From an uncultured Acetobacteraceae bacterium (GTDB lineage Bacteria; Pseudomonadota; Alphaproteobacteria; Acetobacterales; Acetobacteraceae): 38,032 bases of DNA. Below the pieces are notes generated by a model. That model did no database searches, was not told the origin of the DNA, and saw nothing but the letters and a program-made list of their open reading frames with translations. The stretch is from the NCBI GenBank assembly GCA_903895595.1, contig CAITUP010000062.1:1-38032 (forward strand), read 5' to 3'. The first letter of the stretch is position 1; each line of letters begins with the position of its first letter. A program made the position numbers and the translations under genes. Positions 19,545 through 27,623 of this stretch are shown here, piece after piece.

Positions 19545-20792
19545 CTACCCCATCTTCACCGCCCCACTCCCCCGCAACCCCTCAACTGCTGCATCCCCGT
19601 AGCCCAACACCTCCCGCAGCACCCATTCCGAGTGCTCCCCCAGCCCCGGCGCCGCAACGGGGTCGGCCAGCGGCGTGCCCTCCATCCGGAACGGCAGCCG
19701 AATGTTCGGTACAAAACCCTCCACAGGGTGCGGGATCGTGCTCATCAGTTCCCTGTCCCGCATTTCCGTGGACCCGAACGCCTCGGCAATGGAATTGATT
19801 GCCCCGCCCGGCACCCCTGCCTCCCGCATCCGTCCGAGCCAATGCGTTCGGCTCTTTTTCAACAGAATGCCGGAGACAACGGCTAGGATCTCATCCCGGT
19901 GCTCGATCCGGCCCGATGTCGAGGCATAAACCGCATTATCCGCCAGATCCGGCCGGTCCAGGACCCGCGCGGCCAGCCGGTTCCAGGTGCGATCGTTGGC
20001 ACAGGCGATGAACAGCGGTCCATCGGCGGTATCGAACGCCGCCGTCGGCACGGTGTCGCGGCTGGCGTTGCCGAAACGGGACGGTTCCTGCCCGCTGAGC
20101 AAATAGTTCAGCGCGTGGAACCCGACCATGGTCACGGCGGTGTCGAACAGCGCGTTCTCGATATACTGCCCGCGCCCCAAACGCTCCCGAGCGAACAGGG
20201 CGGCCTGGACGGCGTTGCAGGTCATCATCGCGGTCGCCATGTCCATGATCGACGGTCCCGCGCGCACGCCGACGCGGTCCGCGTCCCCGTTCATCGCCAT
20301 GAAACCGGACTCCGCCTGGGTGATGGGATCGAACCCCAGCCGGTCCTTCAGCGGCCCGCTGCGCCCGTAGGCGGACACGGAACAATAGATCAGCCGGGGG
20401 TTCCCCGCCGACACGGTCGGATAGTCCAACCCGAACCGCGCCATGACTCCGGTGGAGAAATTCTCCAACACGACGTCGGATTTGGCGACGATGTCGCGGG
20501 CCACCGCGATCCCGGCCTCCTGCTTCAAATCGATGGCGATGGAGCGCTTGTTACGGTTGGTCCACAGGAACGGGCCGCTCTGGTCGTTGCCCACCTTGGG
20601 GCGGAGGTTGCGAAAATCGTCGCCGCCGTCGGCTTTCTCGATCTTGATCACCTCGGCGCCGAGGTCGGCGAGGATCATGCTGCACAGCGGCCCGGCGATG
20701 AAATGGCTGAAATCCGCGACGCGAATGCCGGCCAGGGCCAAGGGGGCGCCGGCGGGGCGGGGCGTGTGGGGTGAGAGTACCGGTCGGTTCAT
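19545..20792 (-). CDS. CaiB/BaiF (family III) CoA-transferase
   Basis: A 415-aa enzyme that moves CoA from one acyl-CoA to a carboxylic acid, of the formyl-CoA/carnitine CoA-transferase fold. Landmarks are LAGIRVADFSHFIAGPLCSMILADLGAEVIKIE near the start, NRNKRSIAIDLK, the probable catalytic Asp 184 in GPSIMDMATAM, and GVPGGAINSIAEAF in the C-terminal part. Length is normal. AGGAGG sits 5 nt before the ATG, an excellent ribosome-binding site. Its substrate cannot be told from sequence. The upstream region holds an operator-like motif shared with the LysR/DUF1127 region, so it may belong to the same regulon as the pca genes. Confidence 0.93.
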   Translation of the reverse strand: MNRPVLSPHTPRPAGAPLALAGIRVADFSHFIAGPLCSMILADLGAEVIKIEKADGGDDFRNLRPKVGNDQSGPFLWTNRNKRSIAIDLKQEAGIAVARDIVAKSDVVLENFSTGVMARFGLDYPTVSAGNPRLIYCSVSAYGRSGPLKDRLGFDPITQAESGFMAMNGDADRVGVRAGPSIMDMATAMMTCNAVQAALFARERLGRGQYIENALFDTAVTMVGFHALNYLLSGQEPSRFGNASRDTVPTAAFDTADGPLFIACANDRTWNRLAARVLDRPDLADNAVYASTSGRIEHRDEILAVVSGILLKKSRTHWLGRMREAGVPGGAINSIAEAFGSTEMRDRELMSTIPHPVEGFVPNIRLPFRMEGTPLADPVAAPGLGEHSEWVLREVLGYGDAAVEGLRGSGAVKMG

Positions 20793-20860
20793 GGCGTCCT
20801 CCTGGAGATTGGGGGCAGCATCGCGCGAATTACCGGGGTTGCCCAGGGTGTCGTGGTGTT

Positions 20861-20881
20861 ATCGATAATATCGATGTATCG
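20861..20881 (+). promoter_or_regulatory. Operator-like motif, copy A (CoA-transferase / small-protein divergent region)
   Basis: ATCGA-N6-CGATGTATCG lies in a marked AT-rich island. The same 21-nt pattern, in the same orientation and with the same internal spacing, occurs at 22092-22112 (17 of 21 identical), and the next 18 nt are also alike (12 of 18). The dyad CGAT-GT-ATCG suits a dimeric regulator. The best candidate protein is the LysR product encoded between the two copies. Confidence 0.6.
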
Positions 20882-20969
20882 TATGTTGTTTATCTATTTC
20901 CAAGATACAGACCAGCCGCCCTATCTTTCTCCCGACGGCAAGAGATGCCGGAACCTATGGAGAAAAACG

Positions 20970-21149
20970 ATGTTCATGCTCCTGCCCACCCAGCCCGACC
21001 TCGAACCCAGCGAAAACCCCGCCGTCCTGCTGCGGGAAGCGTTCCAGTCCATCGCCGAAACGCTGAAGGGCGCGGCGAAATCCATGTTCGCCGCACCGAT
21101 CCGGTTTTCCTCGGTCGATCACGACGCGATGATGCGGATGCCATTCTGA
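20970..21149 (+). CDS. Small protein of unknown function (59 aa)
   Basis: I do not recognise this family. The 59-residue product begins MFMLLPTQPDLEPSENP, has an amphipathic helical middle (AVLLREAFQSIAETLKGAAK) and ends MMRMPF. It has no signal peptide or membrane span. It is supported as a real gene by GGAG placed 7 nt before the ATG, by an upstream region resembling that of the DUF1127 gene, and by its fit in the space between two minus-strand genes, ending 3 nt before the LysR stop codon. The frame is open earlier, but those residues fall in the AT-rich regulatory region. It could be a small regulatory or stress protein like the DUF1127 group, though no homology is visible. Confidence 0.55.
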   Translation: MFMLLPTQPDLEPSENPAVLLREAFQSIAETLKGAAKSMFAAPIRFSSVDHDAMMRMPF

Positions 21150-21152
21150 CCG

Positions 21153-22079
21153 TTACGCGGCACCTTCGATATCCCGGCCGATCTGGAACAACTGCTCCCG
21201 CAGCCATTTCGCGCCGGGTTCGGCGTCCGACACTCCGCCCCAGAACAGTTCGGAATTCCACGGCGGCAGCGAGACGGGTGGCTGCAGCACCGCCAAATCC
21301 TCAGTGCCCGCCAGCAATTCCGCGATCCGTTTCGGCATGTGCCCGATCAGATCCGTCCGCGCCACGATATGCGGGACCAGATGAAAATCCGAGACCGTCA
21401 CCGCCACCCGCCGTCGCAGCCCCTGAGTCGCCAAAACCTCGTCCACGATCCCGCGATCGTCGGCCGCCAGAGTCACCAGCACATGCGGCGCGGCGACATA
21501 GGCCTCCAGCGATAATGTCCCATCGGCGGACAGCAGCGGATGATGCGCGCAAACCACGCACAGGTAAGAGTCGGAATAGAGCGCCCGCCGCCGGATGCGC
21601 TTCGGCACGTTGCGGAACGAACCGATCAGCAGATCCATCTCCCCCCGATCGAGCAGATCGAACGCATCGCGCTTGTCCAGCACCGAAATCCGCACGTCGA
21701 TCCCCGGTGCCTTCTCCCGCAGCACCGCCAGAAACCGAGGCAGCACCAGCGTCGCCGGGTGATCGCTCGTCGCGATCCGATACACCGCGCGCGCCACGGA
21801 CGGATCGAACCCCGCCTCGGCATCGAACACCTCCCGCACCCGAGCGAGAACCTCGCTGACGGAACGGTTCAGCGCTACGGCTTTTTCAGTGGGGCGCATC
21901 GCCGCGCCGGGCACCCGCACCAACAGTTCGTCCTTGAACGTCAACCGCAACCGGCCGAGCGCCGCACTCATCGCCGGCTGCCCCAGCCCTACCCGCAATC
22001 CCGCGCGGGTCACGTTCCGCTCGGCCATCAAAGCCTCGAACGCCACCAGCAGGTTGAGATCGACGGATGCGAGGTTCAT
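21153..22079 (-). CDS. LysR family transcriptional regulator
   Basis: A 308-aa regulator with the N-terminal winged helix-turn-helix (VDLNLLVAFEALMAERNVTR, then LGQPAMSAALGRLRLTFKDELLVR, about 5-62) and a periplasmic-binding-type effector domain (about 90-300). The style is that of the NodD/NahR-like group. Start 22079 (MNLASVDLNLL) is chosen by fit to the family; an ATG four codons earlier (22091) is possible and neither has a strong ribosome-binding site. It is divergent from the DUF1127-phasin-pcaHGB operon, the usual arrangement for a LysR activator of aromatic breakdown. Copies of an AT-rich motif flank its gene on both sides. Confidence 0.92.
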   Translation of the reverse strand: MNLASVDLNLLVAFEALMAERNVTRAGLRVGLGQPAMSAALGRLRLTFKDELLVRVPGAAMRPTEKAVALNRSVSEVLARVREVFDAEAGFDPSVARAVYRIATSDHPATLVLPRFLAVLREKAPGIDVRISVLDKRDAFDLLDRGEMDLLIGSFRNVPKRIRRRALYSDSYLCVVCAHHPLLSADGTLSLEAYVAAPHVLVTLAADDRGIVDEVLATQGLRRRVAVTVSDFHLVPHIVARTDLIGHMPKRIAELLAGTEDLAVLQPPVSLPPWNSELFWGGVSDAEPGAKWLREQLFQIGRDIEGAA

Positions 22080-22091
22080 GGCATTGTCCAT

Positions 22092-22112
22092 ATCGAAAAA
22101 TACGATGTATCG
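22092..22112 (+). promoter_or_regulatory. Operator-like motif, copy B (LysR / DUF1127-phasin-pca divergent region)
   Basis: The second copy of ATCGA-N6-CGATGTATCG, 75 nt before the DUF1127 start codon and at the 5' edge of the LysR gene, where an autoregulatory site would be expected. A further ATCGAT palindrome follows at 22123-22128. It overlaps the alternative upstream start codon of the LysR gene, which argues for the shorter start. Confidence 0.6.
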
Positions 22113-22186
22113 AATATCATCTATCGATTTTAACAATTCCCGGCAAGGCGGCATTCTGCGTTCGCACCCCAACAGGAGCCAATCCA

Positions 22187-22402
22187 ATGTCCACCACCAC
22201 CTCCCACCCGCACATCCCGGCCATTACGATGCCGTCGTTCCGGGCCGCTATCGGGACCCTGCGGACCTGGGTCCAGCGGGCCCGCAAGCGGGCGCGGGAT
22301 CGCGACGCCTTGGCCTTGCTGAGCGACCGGGAACTCCGCGACTTCTCCGCCGACCGCTGGACGATTGGGCAGGAAGTGTCGAAACCCTTCTGGCGCGGTT
22401 AA
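22187..22402 (+). CDS. DUF1127 domain-containing small protein
   Basis: A 71-aa protein whose C-terminal half (DRDALALLSDRELRDF, then KPFWRG) fits DUF1127, a small Arg-rich alpha/gammaproteobacterial domain sometimes linked to RNA turnover and to phosphate or carbon metabolism. The N-terminal half is poorly conserved (MSTTTSHPHIPAITMPSF). AGGAG lies 8 nt before the ATG. It is 63 nt before the phasin gene with no terminator seen, so it is likely the first gene of the phasin-pca transcript. The upstream AT-rich region carries the motif shared with the 59-aa small-protein gene. Confidence 0.8.
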   Translation: MSTTTSHPHIPAITMPSFRAAIGTLRTWVQRARKRARDRDALALLSDRELRDFSADRWTIGQEVSKPFWRG

Positions 22403-22465
22403 ACTGTCGCTTGAGTCGCCCCCTCCGCGCGCGTAGTTTGACGCTCCGTAGCGAAGGACGATCCC

Positions 22466-22876
22466 ATGCCCGACTTCAGCGATTTCACGAAGCTGTTCGC
22501 CAATATGAAGCTGCCGGCGGCCCCGAATATGGACGCGTTCGTCTCGGCCAGCCGCCGGAATATGGAGGCGTTTACCGCCGCCAACCGCATCGCGCTGGAA
22601 GGCGCTCAGGCCGTCGCGAAGCGGCACATGGAAATCATGCAGCAAGGCATGACGGACATGTCCGACGCCATGCGGTCGATGGCGCTGCCGGAAGACCCGC
22701 AGGCCAAGGCCGCCAAACAGGCGGAAATGCTGAAGCACGCGTATGAGCAGGCGGCGGCAAACATTAAAGAACTCGGCGACCTGATCCAACGCTCCAACGC
22801 CGAGGCGATCGAACTGCTGAACCGGCGCTTCGCGGAGTCCATGGAAGAGGTCAAAGCACTGTCCGAGAAGGCCTGA
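22466..22876 (+). CDS. Phasin family protein
   Basis: A 136-aa helical protein of the phasin family, members of which coat polyhydroxyalkanoate granules. The sequence is Met/Ala/Gln-rich with typical phasin stretches: MDAFVSASRRNMEAFTAANR, AVAKRHMEIMQQGMTDMSDA, and a C-terminal helix, SNAEAIELLNRRFAESMEEV. GAAGGA lies about 7 nt before the ATG. Its stop codon is 1 nt before the pcaH start, so the two are cotranscribed. A phasin in an aromatic-degradation operon suggests that acetyl-CoA from ring cleavage is stored as polymer; this is inference. Confidence 0.88.
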   Translation: MPDFSDFTKLFANMKLPAAPNMDAFVSASRRNMEAFTAANRIALEGAQAVAKRHMEIMQQGMTDMSDAMRSMALPEDPQAKAAKQAEMLKHAYEQAAANIKELGDLIQRSNAEAIELLNRRFAESMEEVKALSEKA

Positions 22877-22877
22877 G

Positions 22878-23576
22878 ATGACCGAAGACTACCGCCCTTA
22901 CGCCGCTGGCAGCCAGCCGTCGCTGGACACGCCTGACTACCGGAGTACCGCCAAGCGGCATCCGCTGCGGCCGCGCCACCCGATGCCGCAGACGATCACG
23001 GAAACCTCCGGCCCGCGGTTTTCGCAACGGCTGTTTCCGGCCACGACCGATCTGACCACCAGCACCAACGGCAAACAGGCGCTGGGCGAGCGGATCGTCG
23101 TCGCCGGCCGCGTCCTGGATGAGGACGGGCGCCCGGTGCCGCACACGATGATCGAGGTTTGGCAGGCAGGTGCCTCCGGCCGATACGACCATCCTGGCGA
23201 CCAGCACGATGCACCGTTGGATCCGAACTTCCATGGCGACGGACGAGTCTACACGGATGCGGATGGCGCGTACTCCTTCCTGACCATCCGCCCCGGCGCC
23301 TATCCGTGGCCGAACCATCGCAACGCGTGGCGACCCACCCATATCCATTTCTCGTTCTTCGGCCCGGCCTTCGCCACACGGCTGATCACCCAGATGTATT
23401 TCCCCGGCGATCCGCTGCTGCCCTTGGACCCGATCTTCAACGGCGTCCCCGATCCCGTCGCCCGCGACCGCCTGATCGCCCAGTTCGACATCGGCCTTAC
23501 CCAGCCCGATTACGCGCTCGGCTACCGCTTCGACGTGGTCCTGCGCGGCCGCGGCGCCACGCCGATGGAGGGTTGA
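22878..23576 (+). CDS. pcaH: Protocatechuate 3,4-dioxygenase beta subunit
   Basis: The iron-bearing subunit of the intradiol dioxygenase that opens protocatechuate to 3-carboxy-cis,cis-muconate. At 232 aa it has all four ferric-iron ligands at the canonical spacing (39, 13 and 2): Tyr 103 (SGRYDH), Tyr 142 (GAYPWPN), His 155 and His 157 (WRPTHIHFS), with Arg 152 in the usual active-site position. The N-terminal extension (HPLRPRHPMPQTITETSGP) is typical of the beta chain. It starts 1 nt after the phasin stop codon and ends 3 nt before pcaG. Confidence 0.97.
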   Translation: MTEDYRPYAAGSQPSLDTPDYRSTAKRHPLRPRHPMPQTITETSGPRFSQRLFPATTDLTTSTNGKQALGERIVVAGRVLDEDGRPVPHTMIEVWQAGASGRYDHPGDQHDAPLDPNFHGDGRVYTDADGAYSFLTIRPGAYPWPNHRNAWRPTHIHFSFFGPAFATRLITQMYFPGDPLLPLDPIFNGVPDPVARDRLIAQFDIGLTQPDYALGYRFDVVLRGRGATPMEG

Positions 23577-23579
23577 GCG

Positions 23580-24101
23580 ATGCCCGTCGCAACGGCAAAC
23601 CAGACGATCGGGCCGTACTGGCACATCATCGAGGACAAAACCCTCGCCGACCTCACCCGCTTTGGCGCGGCCGGCGAGACAATCGTGCTGACCGGCCGCG
23701 TCCTGGACGGCGACGGCGCCCCGTGCTCCGCCGCCTGCGTGGAAATCTGGCAGTCCGATCCTCCGGCGTCGGACGATTTCCCTGGCTGGGGCCGCGCGAA
23801 CACCGACGATAACGGCGAATTTCGGCTGATCACGCTAAAACCCGGGCCGGTTGCCGGCCGCGGCAACGTGCAGCAGGCACCGCATATCGCGATCTGCCTG
23901 TTGTCCCGTGGCCTGATGACGCATCTGGTGACGAGGGCGTATTTCAAAGGCGAGGCACTGAACGAAACCGATCCCCTGCTGACCTCCATCGAGAACCCGG
24001 CACATCGCGCGACGCTGGTCGCGGTGCCCGAAGGGGCAGGGGTCTGGCGGTTGGATATCCGGCTGCAAGGCGAAAACGAAACGGTCTTTCTGGACGTCTG
24101 A
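23580..24101 (+). CDS. pcaG: Protocatechuate 3,4-dioxygenase alpha subunit
   Basis: The non-catalytic partner of PcaH in the alpha-beta dioxygenase. The 173 aa share the intradiol dioxygenase fold (TIGPYWHI, VLTGRVLDGDGAPCSAACVEIWQSD, PHIAICLLSRGLMTHLVTRAYF), but the iron ligands are lacking, as normal for the alpha chain. It is a little shorter than the Pseudomonas chain. Start 3 nt after pcaH; its TGA overlaps the ATG of pcaB in TGATG, so translation is coupled. Confidence 0.96.
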   Translation: MPVATANQTIGPYWHIIEDKTLADLTRFGAAGETIVLTGRVLDGDGAPCSAACVEIWQSDPPASDDFPGWGRANTDDNGEFRLITLKPGPVAGRGNVQQAPHIAICLLSRGLMTHLVTRAYFKGEALNETDPLLTSIENPAHRATLVAVPEGAGVWRLDIRLQGENETVFLDV

Positions 24102-25456
24102 TGCCCATCAACCCCAGTGACGGCCCGATCCTGGGCACGCTTTACGGCACCGACGCCATGCGGGCCGTGTTCGCCGAAACCGCTTACTTCCAGCGTATGC
24201 TGGATGTTGAAGCGGCCCTCGCTCGCGTGCAGGCCCGGCTTGGAATCATCCCGGCCGAAGCCGCCGATGCCATCGTGGCCGCAGCCCAGGTGGGCAATCT
24301 GAGCACCGAAGCCCTCGCCGCGAGCGCACGTAATGTCGGCTATCCCGTGATCGGTCTGGTGACCGGCCTGTCCGAAGCCGCGGGCGAGGCAGGGGCCTGG
24401 ACCCATTGGGGCGCCACCACCCAAGACATCATGGACACCGCGACCGTGTTGCAGGTGCGCGCGGGTCTCGACCTGATCGAGGAAGAACTCCGCGCGATTC
24501 TCCGCGCCTTGGTGGCGCAGGCGGAAACCCATCGCGACACCGTCATGGCCGGGCGCACCCATCTGCAACAGGCCTTGCCCACCACCTTTGGCTTGAAGTG
24601 CGCCACCTGGGCGCAGCCGTTTCTGCATCACCTGCCGCGCCTCGCGCAGTTGCGTCCCCGGGTCGAGCAGGTGGAATTCGGCGGCGCTGCCGGCACCCTC
24701 GCCAGCCTGGGTGACCAGGGTATCCCGGCGATGGAAGGGCTTGCGACAGAACTGGGTCTCACCGCCCCCGCCGCCCCGTGGCATGTCTGCCGGGACGCTT
24801 TGGCCGAAACGGTGGCTTGGTTGGGCGTCTTGTGCGGCAGCCTGGCCAAGATCGCCACCGACATCACGCTGCTGGCACAAACCGAGGTCGCGGAAGTCAC
24901 CGAACCCTACATCGCCGGGCGTGGCGCGTCCTCCACCATGCCGCAGAAGCGTAATCCCATCGCGGCGGAATACATCCTCGCATCCACCCGCACCGTCCAA
25001 GCCCTGGTTCCTGTCATGCTCGGCGCCATGGCACAGGACCACGAGCGCGCGACCGGCCCCTGGCAAGGCGAAGCCCTGGCGCTGCCGCAATGTTTCGTGC
25101 TCACCCATGGCGCGCTGAAACACACGCGTTTCATCGCCGAGGGTATGGTGGTGGACGCCGACCGCATGCGCGCCAACCTGGATATCACGCGCGGGCTGAT
25201 CGTCTCCGAGGCCGTGATGATGGGCCTCGCCCCGATGCTCGGGCGGTTGGAGGCGCATCATGTCGTGAAACACGCCTGCGATCTGGCACTGACCGCCCGC
25301 ATCTCGCTCGCCGATGCCCTGGAGAAGGATGAGGCCGTGGCCTCCCGCCTGGATCGGGCAGCCATCGAGGCGCTGATCGATCCGCGGAACTATCTGGGCA
25401 GCACCGGCGCATTCATCGACCGCGTCGCCGCGGCAGCGAAGGCGGTTTTGGGTTAG
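24101..25456 (+). CDS. pcaB: 3-carboxy-cis,cis-muconate cycloisomerase
   Basis: The second enzyme of the protocatechuate branch of the beta-ketoadipate pathway, closing 3-carboxymuconate to 4-carboxymuconolactone. The 451 aa belong to the fumarase/aspartase superfamily: THWGATTQDIMDT (His 102), GRTHLQQALP (His 154) and the signature SSTMPQKRNP at 277-286. Length is normal. It overlaps pcaG by one base. The following steps (pcaC, pcaD, pcaI/J) are not in the window. A short stem (AGCCT/AGGCT) and a T run lie immediately after the stop codon. Confidence 0.97.
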   Translation: MPINPSDGPILGTLYGTDAMRAVFAETAYFQRMLDVEAALARVQARLGIIPAEAADAIVAAAQVGNLSTEALAASARNVGYPVIGLVTGLSEAAGEAGAWTHWGATTQDIMDTATVLQVRAGLDLIEEELRAILRALVAQAETHRDTVMAGRTHLQQALPTTFGLKCATWAQPFLHHLPRLAQLRPRVEQVEFGGAAGTLASLGDQGIPAMEGLATELGLTAPAAPWHVCRDALAETVAWLGVLCGSLAKIATDITLLAQTEVAEVTEPYIAGRGASSTMPQKRNPIAAEYILASTRTVQALVPVMLGAMAQDHERATGPWQGEALALPQCFVLTHGALKHTRFIAEGMVVDADRMRANLDITRGLIVSEAVMMGLAPMLGRLEAHHVVKHACDLALTARISLADALEKDEAVASRLDRAAIEALIDPRNYLGSTGAFIDRVAAAAKAVLG

Positions 25457-25490: not shown

Positions 25491-26579
25491 CTATCCCTCC
25501 AATACTGCCCTGACCTTGTCGTTCCAAGCGCGCTTCAGGCTTGTTGGAATGTCTCGCTCTTTGAGGAGTGTCAGGATTCGAACCATGAAATCAGGTCGGA
25601 AGCGGGATCCGATGGTCACCAACGAGTGCAGCAGCCACGCCCGCACCGACAGGAAATTCATTTCATGCCCCTGTCCGAAATACCGTTTCGCAAGTTCCCG
25701 TGCAACTGGTTCCGGTGGGGTATCGCCATACAGAAACAAGTAATCGGTCAGATGGTGTGTCAAAATCTTGGTGTTGAACGTTGCCTCCACGCGGGCCCTG
25801 TCGATCAGGCGCTCGGTCACCTCGACCGACAGCACCGTGGCACCATCGGATTGGATAGTGATGTCGCCGCCGGTGTCCGACGCCCGGTCGGCGACATTGA
25901 TCCCCTGCCACTCGATTTGCCAATCCAAGCCGAAGGCCTGTTTGATGGTTTGGAACATCGCGATCGCGAGAATGACCGGCATTCTTCCGCCACTTTGCAC
26001 CTTCAGCAGGTCGGTCAACAACGATTCGAACTGATCTTGACTGAGGCGCTGAACATGTACCAAAGCGACATTCGAGGCGTCGCGTAAATGCAACAGTCCA
26101 GTCAGCAAGTGAGTTAAGGCTGCTCGTGCCAGATCGGGATCGGCGGAAGCCAGCGTGTCGATAAATGCCAACATGGCATCGAAAGCAAGTTTGTCGCGCA
26201 AGCCGGCGCGCGTTTCGGGAACGAATGCGACACTGCGCCTGAACACCGATAAAAACGGGCCTCGCGACGCTGGAATTTCGGCGGATTGCAGAAACGGATT
26301 GACCACCGTCTCATCGAGCGTGCGCCCATTGTAGGCGTTCTCTCCCTGATTGACATACGGCAGGCGGACATCGACCAAAGGATCGACGATACGCGCCAAG
26401 CAACATCCCACCAAAACCTCCCGGTATGCCTGGGTCGCGGAATTCATCAGCGGATCGATGGCCTGCGTAATGGAATCGGGCACCGGCGGTAACGGGCCGG
26501 TGCCAAATAAGCCGTCCGCCGTAGCGAAAACCGTATCCAACACCGCCCTCGCCGCCGCATAGTCGATGATTCGAGCCAT
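25491..26579 (-). CDS. Type II restriction endonuclease, SacI-like family
   Basis: A 362-aa protein that I assign to the SacI restriction-enzyme family from its central motifs: YVNQGENAYNGRTLDETVVNPF, IPASRGPFLSVFRRSVAFV, and a PD-(D/E)XK-like site GGDITIQ...VLSVEVTER (Asp 239, Glu 253), where the usual Lys is replaced by Thr in E-V-T. VEATFNTKI and TDYLFLY follow. The assignment is from memory of the family, not a search. GAGGGG lies 8 nt before the ATG. It is 12 nt after a DNA adenine methylase gene, the natural partner. Base composition looks lower in GC than neighbouring genes, which fits recent transfer. The recognition site cannot be read from sequence. Confidence 0.72.
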   Translation of the reverse strand: MARIIDYAAARAVLDTVFATADGLFGTGPLPPVPDSITQAIDPLMNSATQAYREVLVGCCLARIVDPLVDVRLPYVNQGENAYNGRTLDETVVNPFLQSAEIPASRGPFLSVFRRSVAFVPETRAGLRDKLAFDAMLAFIDTLASADPDLARAALTHLLTGLLHLRDASNVALVHVQRLSQDQFESLLTDLLKVQSGGRMPVILAIAMFQTIKQAFGLDWQIEWQGINVADRASDTGGDITIQSDGATVLSVEVTERLIDRARVEATFNTKILTHHLTDYLFLYGDTPPEPVARELAKRYFGQGHEMNFLSVRAWLLHSLVTIGSRFRPDFMVRILTLLKERDIPTSLKRAWNDKVRAVLEG

Positions 26580-26591
26580 TGGCGCGTCCCC

Positions 26592-27578
26592 TCAGTAGTT
26601 CATCCAGACGCTTTCCTGGCGCAGTTGTTTGATCGAGTGGCAGTGCTTCTCGTCGGCATCGAACCGGCGCCACCCTTCATACAGCCGGTCCATCAAATCG
26701 CAGCGATAACCGGAAATCGCTGCCTTCCCCTTAATATCCCGCAACGTCGCCGCCAAGGCCTTATGCTCGGCTTGGTCCATTTCGAACCCATAGGCCTTAC
26801 TGTCGCCCCGCGTCTCGTGCAGATAAGGCGGATCGCAGTAGAATAAGGTTTCGGCGCTGTCGTACAGCTTGATGACATCGGCCGCCGGCCGGTTTTCGAT
26901 CTGCACCCGCAGCAGGCGAGCGCCGATATCGCTCAGGCCCTCAATCCCGCCGAACCAGCGGGAAATCACCCCGGACATCCCGGCGCGGCTGGTATTCTTG
27001 CAATTGGCCCAACGTCCCAGCGTCGCGGTTTGCGCCAGACCGGTACGCGCCTGACGTGCCCGCACATAAAAACGGCGGGCGCGCTCCAATGAAGTAACCT
27101 CGGGGGCGTTCGGTGTGACCGCGACGTAGAACTCCTCGCGTGAGAACGGCGTCAGCGCGATCAGCCGGGTCAACTCGTCAGGATCCTCCCGCAGAACGCG
27201 AAAGAAGTTCACAACCTCGCCGTCGATGTCGTTGTAGGTTTCCACGGGCGCAGGTGCCCGGTTGATCAGCACAGCGCCGGACCCCGCGAAGGGTTCGCAG
27301 TAGTGATGGGCTTCCGGCAACAACGGCAGCAGCCATTCCAAATGGCTGAATTTTCCACCGTACCATCCGAACACCAAGCGTTTGCGTGCACGGCCTCTGG
27401 GCGCCGCCCCGCTCGTATTCAGATACAGCGGGGACAACCCGCGCTTCCCTGTCGCTACGACCATATGCTCCGCGACTCCGCCTCGATTCCTTGAGTCTGA
27501 ACGACCGGGGGCGCCGGCGCCAGTCCCGCCCGAGGGATCGAGGCTCCAGAGCGGAAGTTGGCGGGGCGGGGGTTCCAT
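26592..27578 (-). CDS. D12-class DNA N6-adenine methyltransferase of a restriction-modification system
   Basis: A Dam-family modification enzyme of 328 aa that protects host DNA from the neighbouring nuclease. Landmarks are FGWYGGK (70-76; motif X), CEPFAGSGAVL (SAM-binding motif I, about 94-104) and FYCDPPY (catalytic motif IV, DPPY at 249-252). The first 65 residues are Arg/Gly/Pro-rich and not part of the known fold. ATG 27578 is preferred because GGTGA lies 5 nt upstream; a GTG three codons earlier (27587) is possible, as is a start further inside. The presumed ribosome-binding site lies in the stem of a 19-bp hairpin, so translation may be controlled. It stands first, with the nuclease gene downstream. 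Confidence 0.88.
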   Translation of the reverse strand: MEPPPRQLPLWSLDPSGGTGAGAPGRSDSRNRGGVAEHMVVATGKRGLSPLYLNTSGAAPRGRARKRLVFGWYGGKFSHLEWLLPLLPEAHHYCEPFAGSGAVLINRAPAPVETYNDIDGEVVNFFRVLREDPDELTRLIALTPFSREEFYVAVTPNAPEVTSLERARRFYVRARQARTGLAQTATLGRWANCKNTSRAGMSGVISRWFGGIEGLSDIGARLLRVQIENRPAADVIKLYDSAETLFYCDPPYLHETRGDSKAYGFEMDQAEHKALAATLRDIKGKAAISGYRCDLMDRLYEGWRRFDADEKHCHSIKQLRQESVWMNY

Positions 27579-27581
27579 AAT

Positions 27582-27623
27582 GGTCACCGGTTATGCTGCG
27601 TAAGCGCAGCATAACCGGTGACC
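27582..27623 (-). promoter_or_regulatory. Perfect 19-bp hairpin at the methylase ribosome-binding site
   Basis: GGTCACCGGTTATGCTGCG (27582-27600) and its exact complement (27605-27623) flank the 4-nt loop TAAG. On the minus strand the stem ends 3 nt before the methylase ATG and contains the presumed Shine-Dalgarno GGTGA. It could be an RNA switch, a dimer-binding operator, or both; transcription-unit ends at restriction-modification loci often carry such control sites. Confidence 0.7.

Follow-up and report, generated by a model that had tools for sequence, protein, structure and literature searches.

The window analyzed here (the whole 38,032-nt stretch of DNA) carries a gene for a LysR-type regulator with one copy of a candidate operator on either side of it, each copy standing beside the gene of a small protein. 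In the following list of features, sites 1 and 2 denote the two copies.

19545-20792, minus strand: family III CoA-transferase (Pfam CoA_transf_3, 412.9 bits), divergent from site 1; a possible but unsupported target
20861-20899, plus strand: operator site 1; left pair ATC-N9-GAT at 20861-20875, right pair AT-N10-TAT at 20883-20897, then TT; 1 mismatch to the four-site pattern
20898-20927, plus strand: putative promoter of the 59-aa ORF; -35-like TTCCAA (20898-20903), N18, -10-like TATCTT (20922-20927); weak consensus match
20970-21149, plus strand: orphan ORF of 59 aa, GGAG before the ATG; likely main target of site 1
21153-22079, minus strand: LysR-type regulator, 308 aa (Pfam HTH_1 41.3 bits, cut-off 26.6; LysR_substrate 94.5 bits, cut-off 28); aligns with its orthologues in loci L048 and L049 from the same first residue
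22092-22130, plus strand: operator site 2; left pair ATC-N9-GAT at 22092-22106, right pair AT-N10-GAT at 22114-22128, then TT; 0 mismatches; conserved in L048 and L049
22129-22157, plus strand: putative promoter of the DUF1127-like gene; -35-like TTTAAC (22129-22134), N17, -10-like CATTCT (22152-22157); weak consensus match
22187-22402, plus strand: DUF1127-like protein, 71 aa (Pfam DUF1127 19.9 bits, below the cut-off of 23.3); likely main target of site 2
22411-22439, plus strand: promoter-like element of phasin-pcaHGB, TTGAGT-N17-TAGTTT, after the DUF1127 stop and 55 nt before the phasin ATG
22466-25456, plus strand: phasin, pcaH, pcaG and pcaB; neighbours, probably not primary targets

Both motifs exist, far beyond chance. 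Site 1 begins with the 21-mer ATCGATAATATCGATGTATCG (20861-20881, plus strand) and site 2 with ATCGAAAAATACGATGTATCG (22092-22112, plus strand); the two are identical at 17 of 21 positions, and 12 of the next 18 bases are alike. A sequence-only reading of this DNA had described these two 21-nt motifs, in one orientation and flanking the LysR gene, and its coordinates and both counts agree with the window. When the two intergenic regions are compared, the best ungapped 39-mer is identical at 29/39 positions, a value reached in 0/100 dinucleotide shuffles. The 21-mer pattern has five matches in the window with up to three mismatches (1.44 expected; two of 100 shuffles reach five), and only sites 1 and 2 match it with 0 mismatches. 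Similarly, the 15-base core pattern matches the window's own genome 17 times with up to two mismatches, with 0 mismatches only at sites 1 and 2 and with exactly one nowhere. The backwards pattern gives four matches, which is a weak control, since reversal removes the CG-containing half-sites, and we therefore placed weight on other genomes and loci instead. The AT-rich islands of the sequence-only reading are likewise borne out: the G+C content of the 39-bp sites is 26% and 28%, compared with 64% for the window, and no other 70-bp stretch of the 38-kb window is as AT-rich as those at sites 1 and 2.

A scan of GTDB genomes yielded 12 relatives of the LysR protein, including two clear orthologues, L048 (82% identity) and L049 (72%), both in Acetobacteraceae MAGs. 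The same two orthologues were returned by a search of 145 relatives, where their genomes are labelled G002 and G058, and among 397 family genomes an E value of 1e-70 was passed only by the own genome and G058. Thus, the orthologue sample consists of two loci, both from MAGs sharing one project prefix. In both, lysR diverges from a DUF1127-like gene (tblastn, 40% and 37%; the divergent small genes are 41% and 39% identical to that of the window). The PF06568 gathering score of 23.3 is exceeded by the L049 protein (28.8) and is missed by those of the window (19.9) and L048 (18.8). Since the window protein falls below this cut-off while the three proteins are interrelated, we use the label “DUF1127-like”. 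The two orthologous loci have no match to the phasin, pca, CoA-transferase, or 59-aa genes, with the L049 locus ending just inside the 3′ end of lysR and thus covering only the DUF1127 side.

Ungapped alignment of four sites, i.e., sites 1 and 2 of the window plus those of the L048 and L049 LysR loci, gives the 39-bp consensus ATCGA-N6-CGAT-N15-TATCGATTT, of which the 21-mers are the left part. It contains two half-site pairs, each with the T-N11-A box of LysR-type transcriptional regulators (LTTRs). The left pair (operator positions 1-15) is exactly ATC-N9-GAT in three of the four sites (site 1, site 2, and L048) and ATT-N9-GAT in L049, whereas the right pair (positions 23-37), 22 bp beyond the left, is AT-N10-GAT, or AT-N10-TAT in site 1. 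Both boxes are invariant in the four sites (T2 and A14 in the left pair, T24 and A36 in the right). This is the layout of an LTTR operator, in which a half-site pair holds a T-N11-A box and a second pair follows about two turns away, near the inferred -35 region. The motif of the sequence-only reading is therefore real, but its 21-nt extent is too short: the feature spans 39 bp, and in the proposed core CGATGTATCG only the CGAT half is conserved (4/4 sites), whereas the right half, GTATCG, is not conserved in the orthologues.

The best four-way 39-mer has 19/39 invariant columns, compared with at most 9 in 40 joint shuffles, a null in which pruning may have depressed values under 10. In pairwise comparisons, site 2 and site 1 share 29 positions, site 2 and L048 27, and L048 and L049 27, each reached in 0/100 shuffles; the weaker pairs (site 2 with L049, and site 1 with L048 and with L049) share 24/39 and are near chance, with 1, 2, and 1 of 100 shuffles attaining this value. 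Beyond the operator, site 1 shows no clear conservation with the other sites (fractions 0.037 to 0.508), and a duplication of promoter or leader between sites 1 and 2 is unsupported (fraction 0.037 anchored at the operator and 0.508 at the ATG). The extended pattern matches the window twice with up to three mismatches, compared with 0.03 expected and 0/100 shuffles, a result that is partly circular because the pattern was derived from the sites.

For the same reason, the fit of the operator pattern to its own sites proves nothing; what is informative is that the genomes holding these sites show no other close match. The sequence-only reading had named, among others, two findings that would speak against its motif, namely loss of conservation at orthologous genes and random occurrence across the genome. 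Neither was observed: the operator is present in the divergent LysR/DUF1127 intergenic region of both orthologous loci found (2/2), and in the own genome only sites 1 and 2 match it with fewer than three mismatches. Taking genomes G000, G002, and G058 together, there are 17 matches with up to three mismatches, of which four are the sites themselves (0, 1, 0, and 1 mismatches), one has two mismatches, and twelve have three; each of the two orthologous genomes has one site with 0-1 mismatches. Across 150 family genomes, 0-1 mismatches occur at sites 1 and 2, at the LysR site of G058, and at a single place in each of 4 further genomes out of the remaining 148.

We also scanned 98 deduplicated upstream regions of LysR relatives, of which seven match with up to two mismatches: three orthologues and L055, L038, L042, and L181. 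The latter four were not counted as evidence of wide conservation, since by eye their left pair seems to lie within the LysR coding start, where coding constraint could give the match (e.g., a frame reading IDHFN). These four loci carry AAATCGAT shortly before the LysR start, which could belong to an operator of this type or reflect chance plus coding constraint. As controls on the 98 regions, the reverse-complement orientation gave one match at two mismatches, and the reversed motif none below six. Upstream of the non-orthologous relatives, paired AT-N10-GAT elements occur with a spacer of 7 in five regions forward and six reverse, while other spacers between 0 and 15 occur in at most three either way. 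This spacer-7 excess is at most suggestive, since three of the forward five are coding-start cases.

The distance from operator base 1 to the ATG of the small gene is 109 nt at site 1, L048, and L049, and 95 nt at site 2. Since this distance is the same in three of the four sites, the polarity of the operator points to the small-protein genes. At the level of sequence comparison, four points can be regarded as demonstrated: the operator exists, it is conserved with LysR and DUF1127 in three genomes, close matches to it are rare, and it stands at a fixed distance from the start of the small gene in three of the four sites. The 59-aa ORF has no family match, and among 145 relatives and 397 family genomes (the own genome being included in both), relatives of it were found in the own genome only. 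In addition, an Rfam search of 20700-22600 with E up to 1 gave no match to an RNA element.

Measured from operator base 1, the -35-like hexamer lies at 38-43 in the four sites and the -10-like hexamer at 61-66 (62-67 in site 1). The best hexamer settings near the sites score 6-8 of 12, with the best placement in L048 being elsewhere, and a generic sigma-70 and terminator scan picked neither the DUF1127 nor the 59-aa promoter. The scan reported one promoter-like site overlapping each operator, at 22093-22120 (plus) and 20892-20865 (minus), two where 0.5 are expected; the latter faces the CoA-transferase. Given the poor hexamer scores and the preference of the scan for other sites, we treat the listed promoters as putative.

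We infer that the LysR protein encoded here is the binder, and with it the promoters, targets, activation, and autorepression described below. A LysR tetramer would bridge the left pair ATC-N9-GAT and the right pair AT-N10-GAT, the latter abutting the -35 region, and in this state, together with some inducer, it would activate the small gene on that side, so that site 2 would serve the DUF1127-like gene and site 1 the 59-aa ORF. Transcription would start near operator position 73, with the center of the left pair near -65, where the recognition site of an LTTR usually lies (PMC8407307). Binding at site 2, close to the lysR start codon, would also repress lysR. On the side facing lysR, the operator stops 12 bp short of the start ATG in the window and 32 bp short of it in L048, and in L049 it shares two bases with that ATG. 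Being near or over the start codon in all three loci, the operator fits autorepression; in the window, an in-frame ATG at 22091-22089 would set the lysR start directly against it. Altogether, we consider it probable that the LysR protein encoded between sites 1 and 2 uses both as ordinary autoregulatory/activator operators, with the DUF1127-like and 59-aa genes as targets and phasin-pcaHGB probably under a promoter of its own.

The neighbouring genes call for separate treatment. An element of the pattern TTGNNN-N17-[TC]A[TG]NT[TG] precedes the phasin gene in 7/7 distinct loci, the window included, the pattern having been written after some of the loci were seen. In the other six loci, it lies 58-59 nt before an in-frame ATG, and its background density is 0.008 per 110 nt. 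The phasin-pcaHGB genes therefore probably have their own promoter, as judged from this element. In G010 and G026, which hold the closest phasin-pcaHGB blocks, the fetched loci have no DUF1127, LysR, or 59-aa match, and by eye the divergent gene differs from that of the window. In four of 14 other CoA-transferase loci (L114, L116, L117, and L118), a phasin gene lies near the CoA-transferase with no match to LysR, DUF1127, or the 59-aa ORF, so that 20861-22402 gives the impression of an independent unit flanked by two neighbours. The gap between CoA-transferase and phasin in these loci is about 115 to 245 bp in L116, L117, and L118 and 925 bp in L114. The phasin leaders in these relatives carry TGCTGCACTGCA or TGTTGCACTGCA, which are reminiscent of a PhaR-type site, and the window's phasin leader has neither.

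The sequence-only reading had proposed a single LysR regulon joining ring cleavage, storage granules, a CoA-transferase, and two small proteins. Its core is supported, in that a LysR-type operator is found in two copies with two small genes beside them, but the joining of the metabolic genes is not. In its full form, the LysR protein would sense protocatechuate or a related aromatic compound, and the two sites would control the CoA-transferase, the 59-aa ORF, the DUF1127-like gene, and the whole phasin-pcaHGB block. The adjacency of these genes favors such a regulon, as does the 63-bp gap between DUF1127 and phasin, in which no terminator-like site was found, so that read-through from DUF1127 into phasin-pca is possible. 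The promoter-like site overlapping site 1 faces the CoA-transferase, which could be co-regulated by geometry alone, and the solved relatives of the LysR protein include an activator of PCP degradation (4rns) as well as 2uye and 1utb, which we take to be DntR, a regulator of nitroaromatic degradation. Nevertheless, we did not retain it as the main reading and consider it unlikely, since phasin-pca carries its own conserved promoter-like element, the G010 and G026 blocks occur without LysR, DUF1127, and operator, and the two orthologous LysR loci have no match to these genes. Moreover, pcaH is present in 30/33 genus genomes (E 1e-40 or better), whereas the genus genomes searched yielded one LysR orthologue besides that of the window. 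Nor does the operator occur at the other pcaH loci (29) and CoA-transferase loci (14) of the genus, where the best match has at least four mismatches. Even in G002, which has a LysR orthologue, none of the eight operator matches with up to three mismatches is on a pcaH or CoA-transferase contig.

Two further explanations concern the sites themselves. The 59-aa ORF, being an orphan, may be no gene at all; in that case, site 1 would have no gene of its own, and both sites would autoregulate lysR, for example through DNA looping between tetramers bound 1231 bp from each other or through a decoy function of the copy 3′ of lysR. According to an excerpt on this family, LysR regulators bind as dimers of dimers (PMC5002191). 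We regard this as quite unlikely, because site 1, located behind the 59-aa ORF, is not part of the lysR transcription unit, because its polarity and its 109 nt to an ATG with a ribosome site equal those of the orthologous DUF1127 genes, and because each orthologous genome has a single site with 0-1 mismatches. Alternatively, the operator could belong to another regulator with ATCGAT-type half-sites and flank lysR by chance. CGAT-rich patterns are not rare: 29/150 family genomes match the operator pattern with up to two mismatches, and of 28 such loci examined, three are beside a LysR relative and 25 are not. However, the operator accompanies the lysR orthologue in 3/3 genomes, in which no other 0-1 mismatch site occurs except site 1, and the layout is that of an LTTR operator, which makes a foreign regulator very improbable. 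As for the preferred reading of two operators with two small-gene targets, it can be extended, tentatively and with more doubt than conviction, to a self-contained small-protein cassette, in which a LysR gene has an operator of the same polarity on each side, each driving one small protein, the whole lying between a CoA-transferase and phasin-pcaHGB, with the 59-aa protein being either a second, fast-diverged DUF1127-type protein or a new family. If this were true, the acquisition of an operator would have brought a new small gene under the same switch; only one genome is known to carry site 1.

Judged by its parts, this kind of switch is ordinary and already known, the nearest analogues being the NodD nod box for the layout and VtlR/LsrB for a LysR regulator controlling DUF1127 proteins. 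Like the locus described here, the nod box combines a LysR protein, a divergent target, and a palindromic ATC-N9-GAT, found exactly here as the left pair in three of the four sites. In Bradyrhizobium, 11 bp separate the nod box from the start of nodD1, whose predicted promoter it overlaps (PMC5596368); the corresponding distance to the lysR start here is 12 bp. The differences are that the conserved nod box is 47 bp rather than 39 bp, that the genes examined here are not nod genes, and that a second site lies beyond lysR. VtlR is a LysR activator whose main targets, according to an excerpt, include three DUF1127 small proteins (PMC12595884), similar to the target predicted here. Its motif CAATGCAGCCATGCA is at neither site; the single match in the window, with three mismatches, is at 95-109 (1.31 expected). 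An sRNA is also under VtlR control, whereas no Rfam match was found in 20700-22600, and LsrB is described in the text excerpted as solely found in Rhizobiales (PMC11975290).

PcaQ shares with the present protein that it is a LysR regulator near pca genes. Presuming its ATAACC-type site to be ATAACC-N4-GGTTAA, we found nine matches in the window at three mismatches (6.92 expected); just one of them is near the sites, at 20776-20791, where the CoA-transferase starts. The LysR protein scores 52.1 bits against the PcaQ equivalog TIGR02424 (cut-off 303.8), and the PcaQ site ATAaccgggggatTAT, as given in an excerpted source (PMC5002191), differs from the operator, in agreement with the view of the sequence-only reading that this is not a PcaQ-type site. 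The same excerpt places the center of the PcaQ site 65.5 bp upstream in one S. meliloti target. Among NCBIfam models, the best scores are both sub-threshold, namely BsrA (NF050187) at 186.9 bits (cut-off 480) and LeuO at 130.5 bits (cut-off 262). BsrA binds a T-N11-A box and, in the part of the source consulted, has 765 bound regions in Pseudomonas aeruginosa (PMC8407307), compared with two close operator matches in the window's genome. By sequence, the solved structures nearest to the LysR protein are 2uye, 1utb, and kin (E 3.9e-37), annotated as LysR-type or regulatory proteins and taken here to be DntR; no nitroaromatic genes are among those examined in the window. Among named plasmid relatives, the 15 of 1215 records listed are about 40-43% identical, and in two of these the neighbours are an aldo/keto reductase and an MFS transporter. 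The literature excerpts obtained on DUF1127 together with LysR contained no report of this operator system.

Our analysis thus offers an exact operator for an uncharacterised LysR protein, of Acetobacteraceae by its relatives, and predicts two small-protein targets, one of them an orphan. It suggests that VtlR is not the only LysR regulator to control DUF1127 small proteins, and it warns against inferring a shared regulon from adjacency, since the adjoining pca genes seem to have their own promoter. Behind pcaB, the minus-strand stretch 25491-27587 encodes a SacI-like restriction endonuclease (Pfam RE_SacI, 34.8 bits); the ORF 26592-27587, which adjoins the RE_SacI gene, reads by eye like an adenine DNA methyltransferase, and the two probably form a restriction-modification pair.
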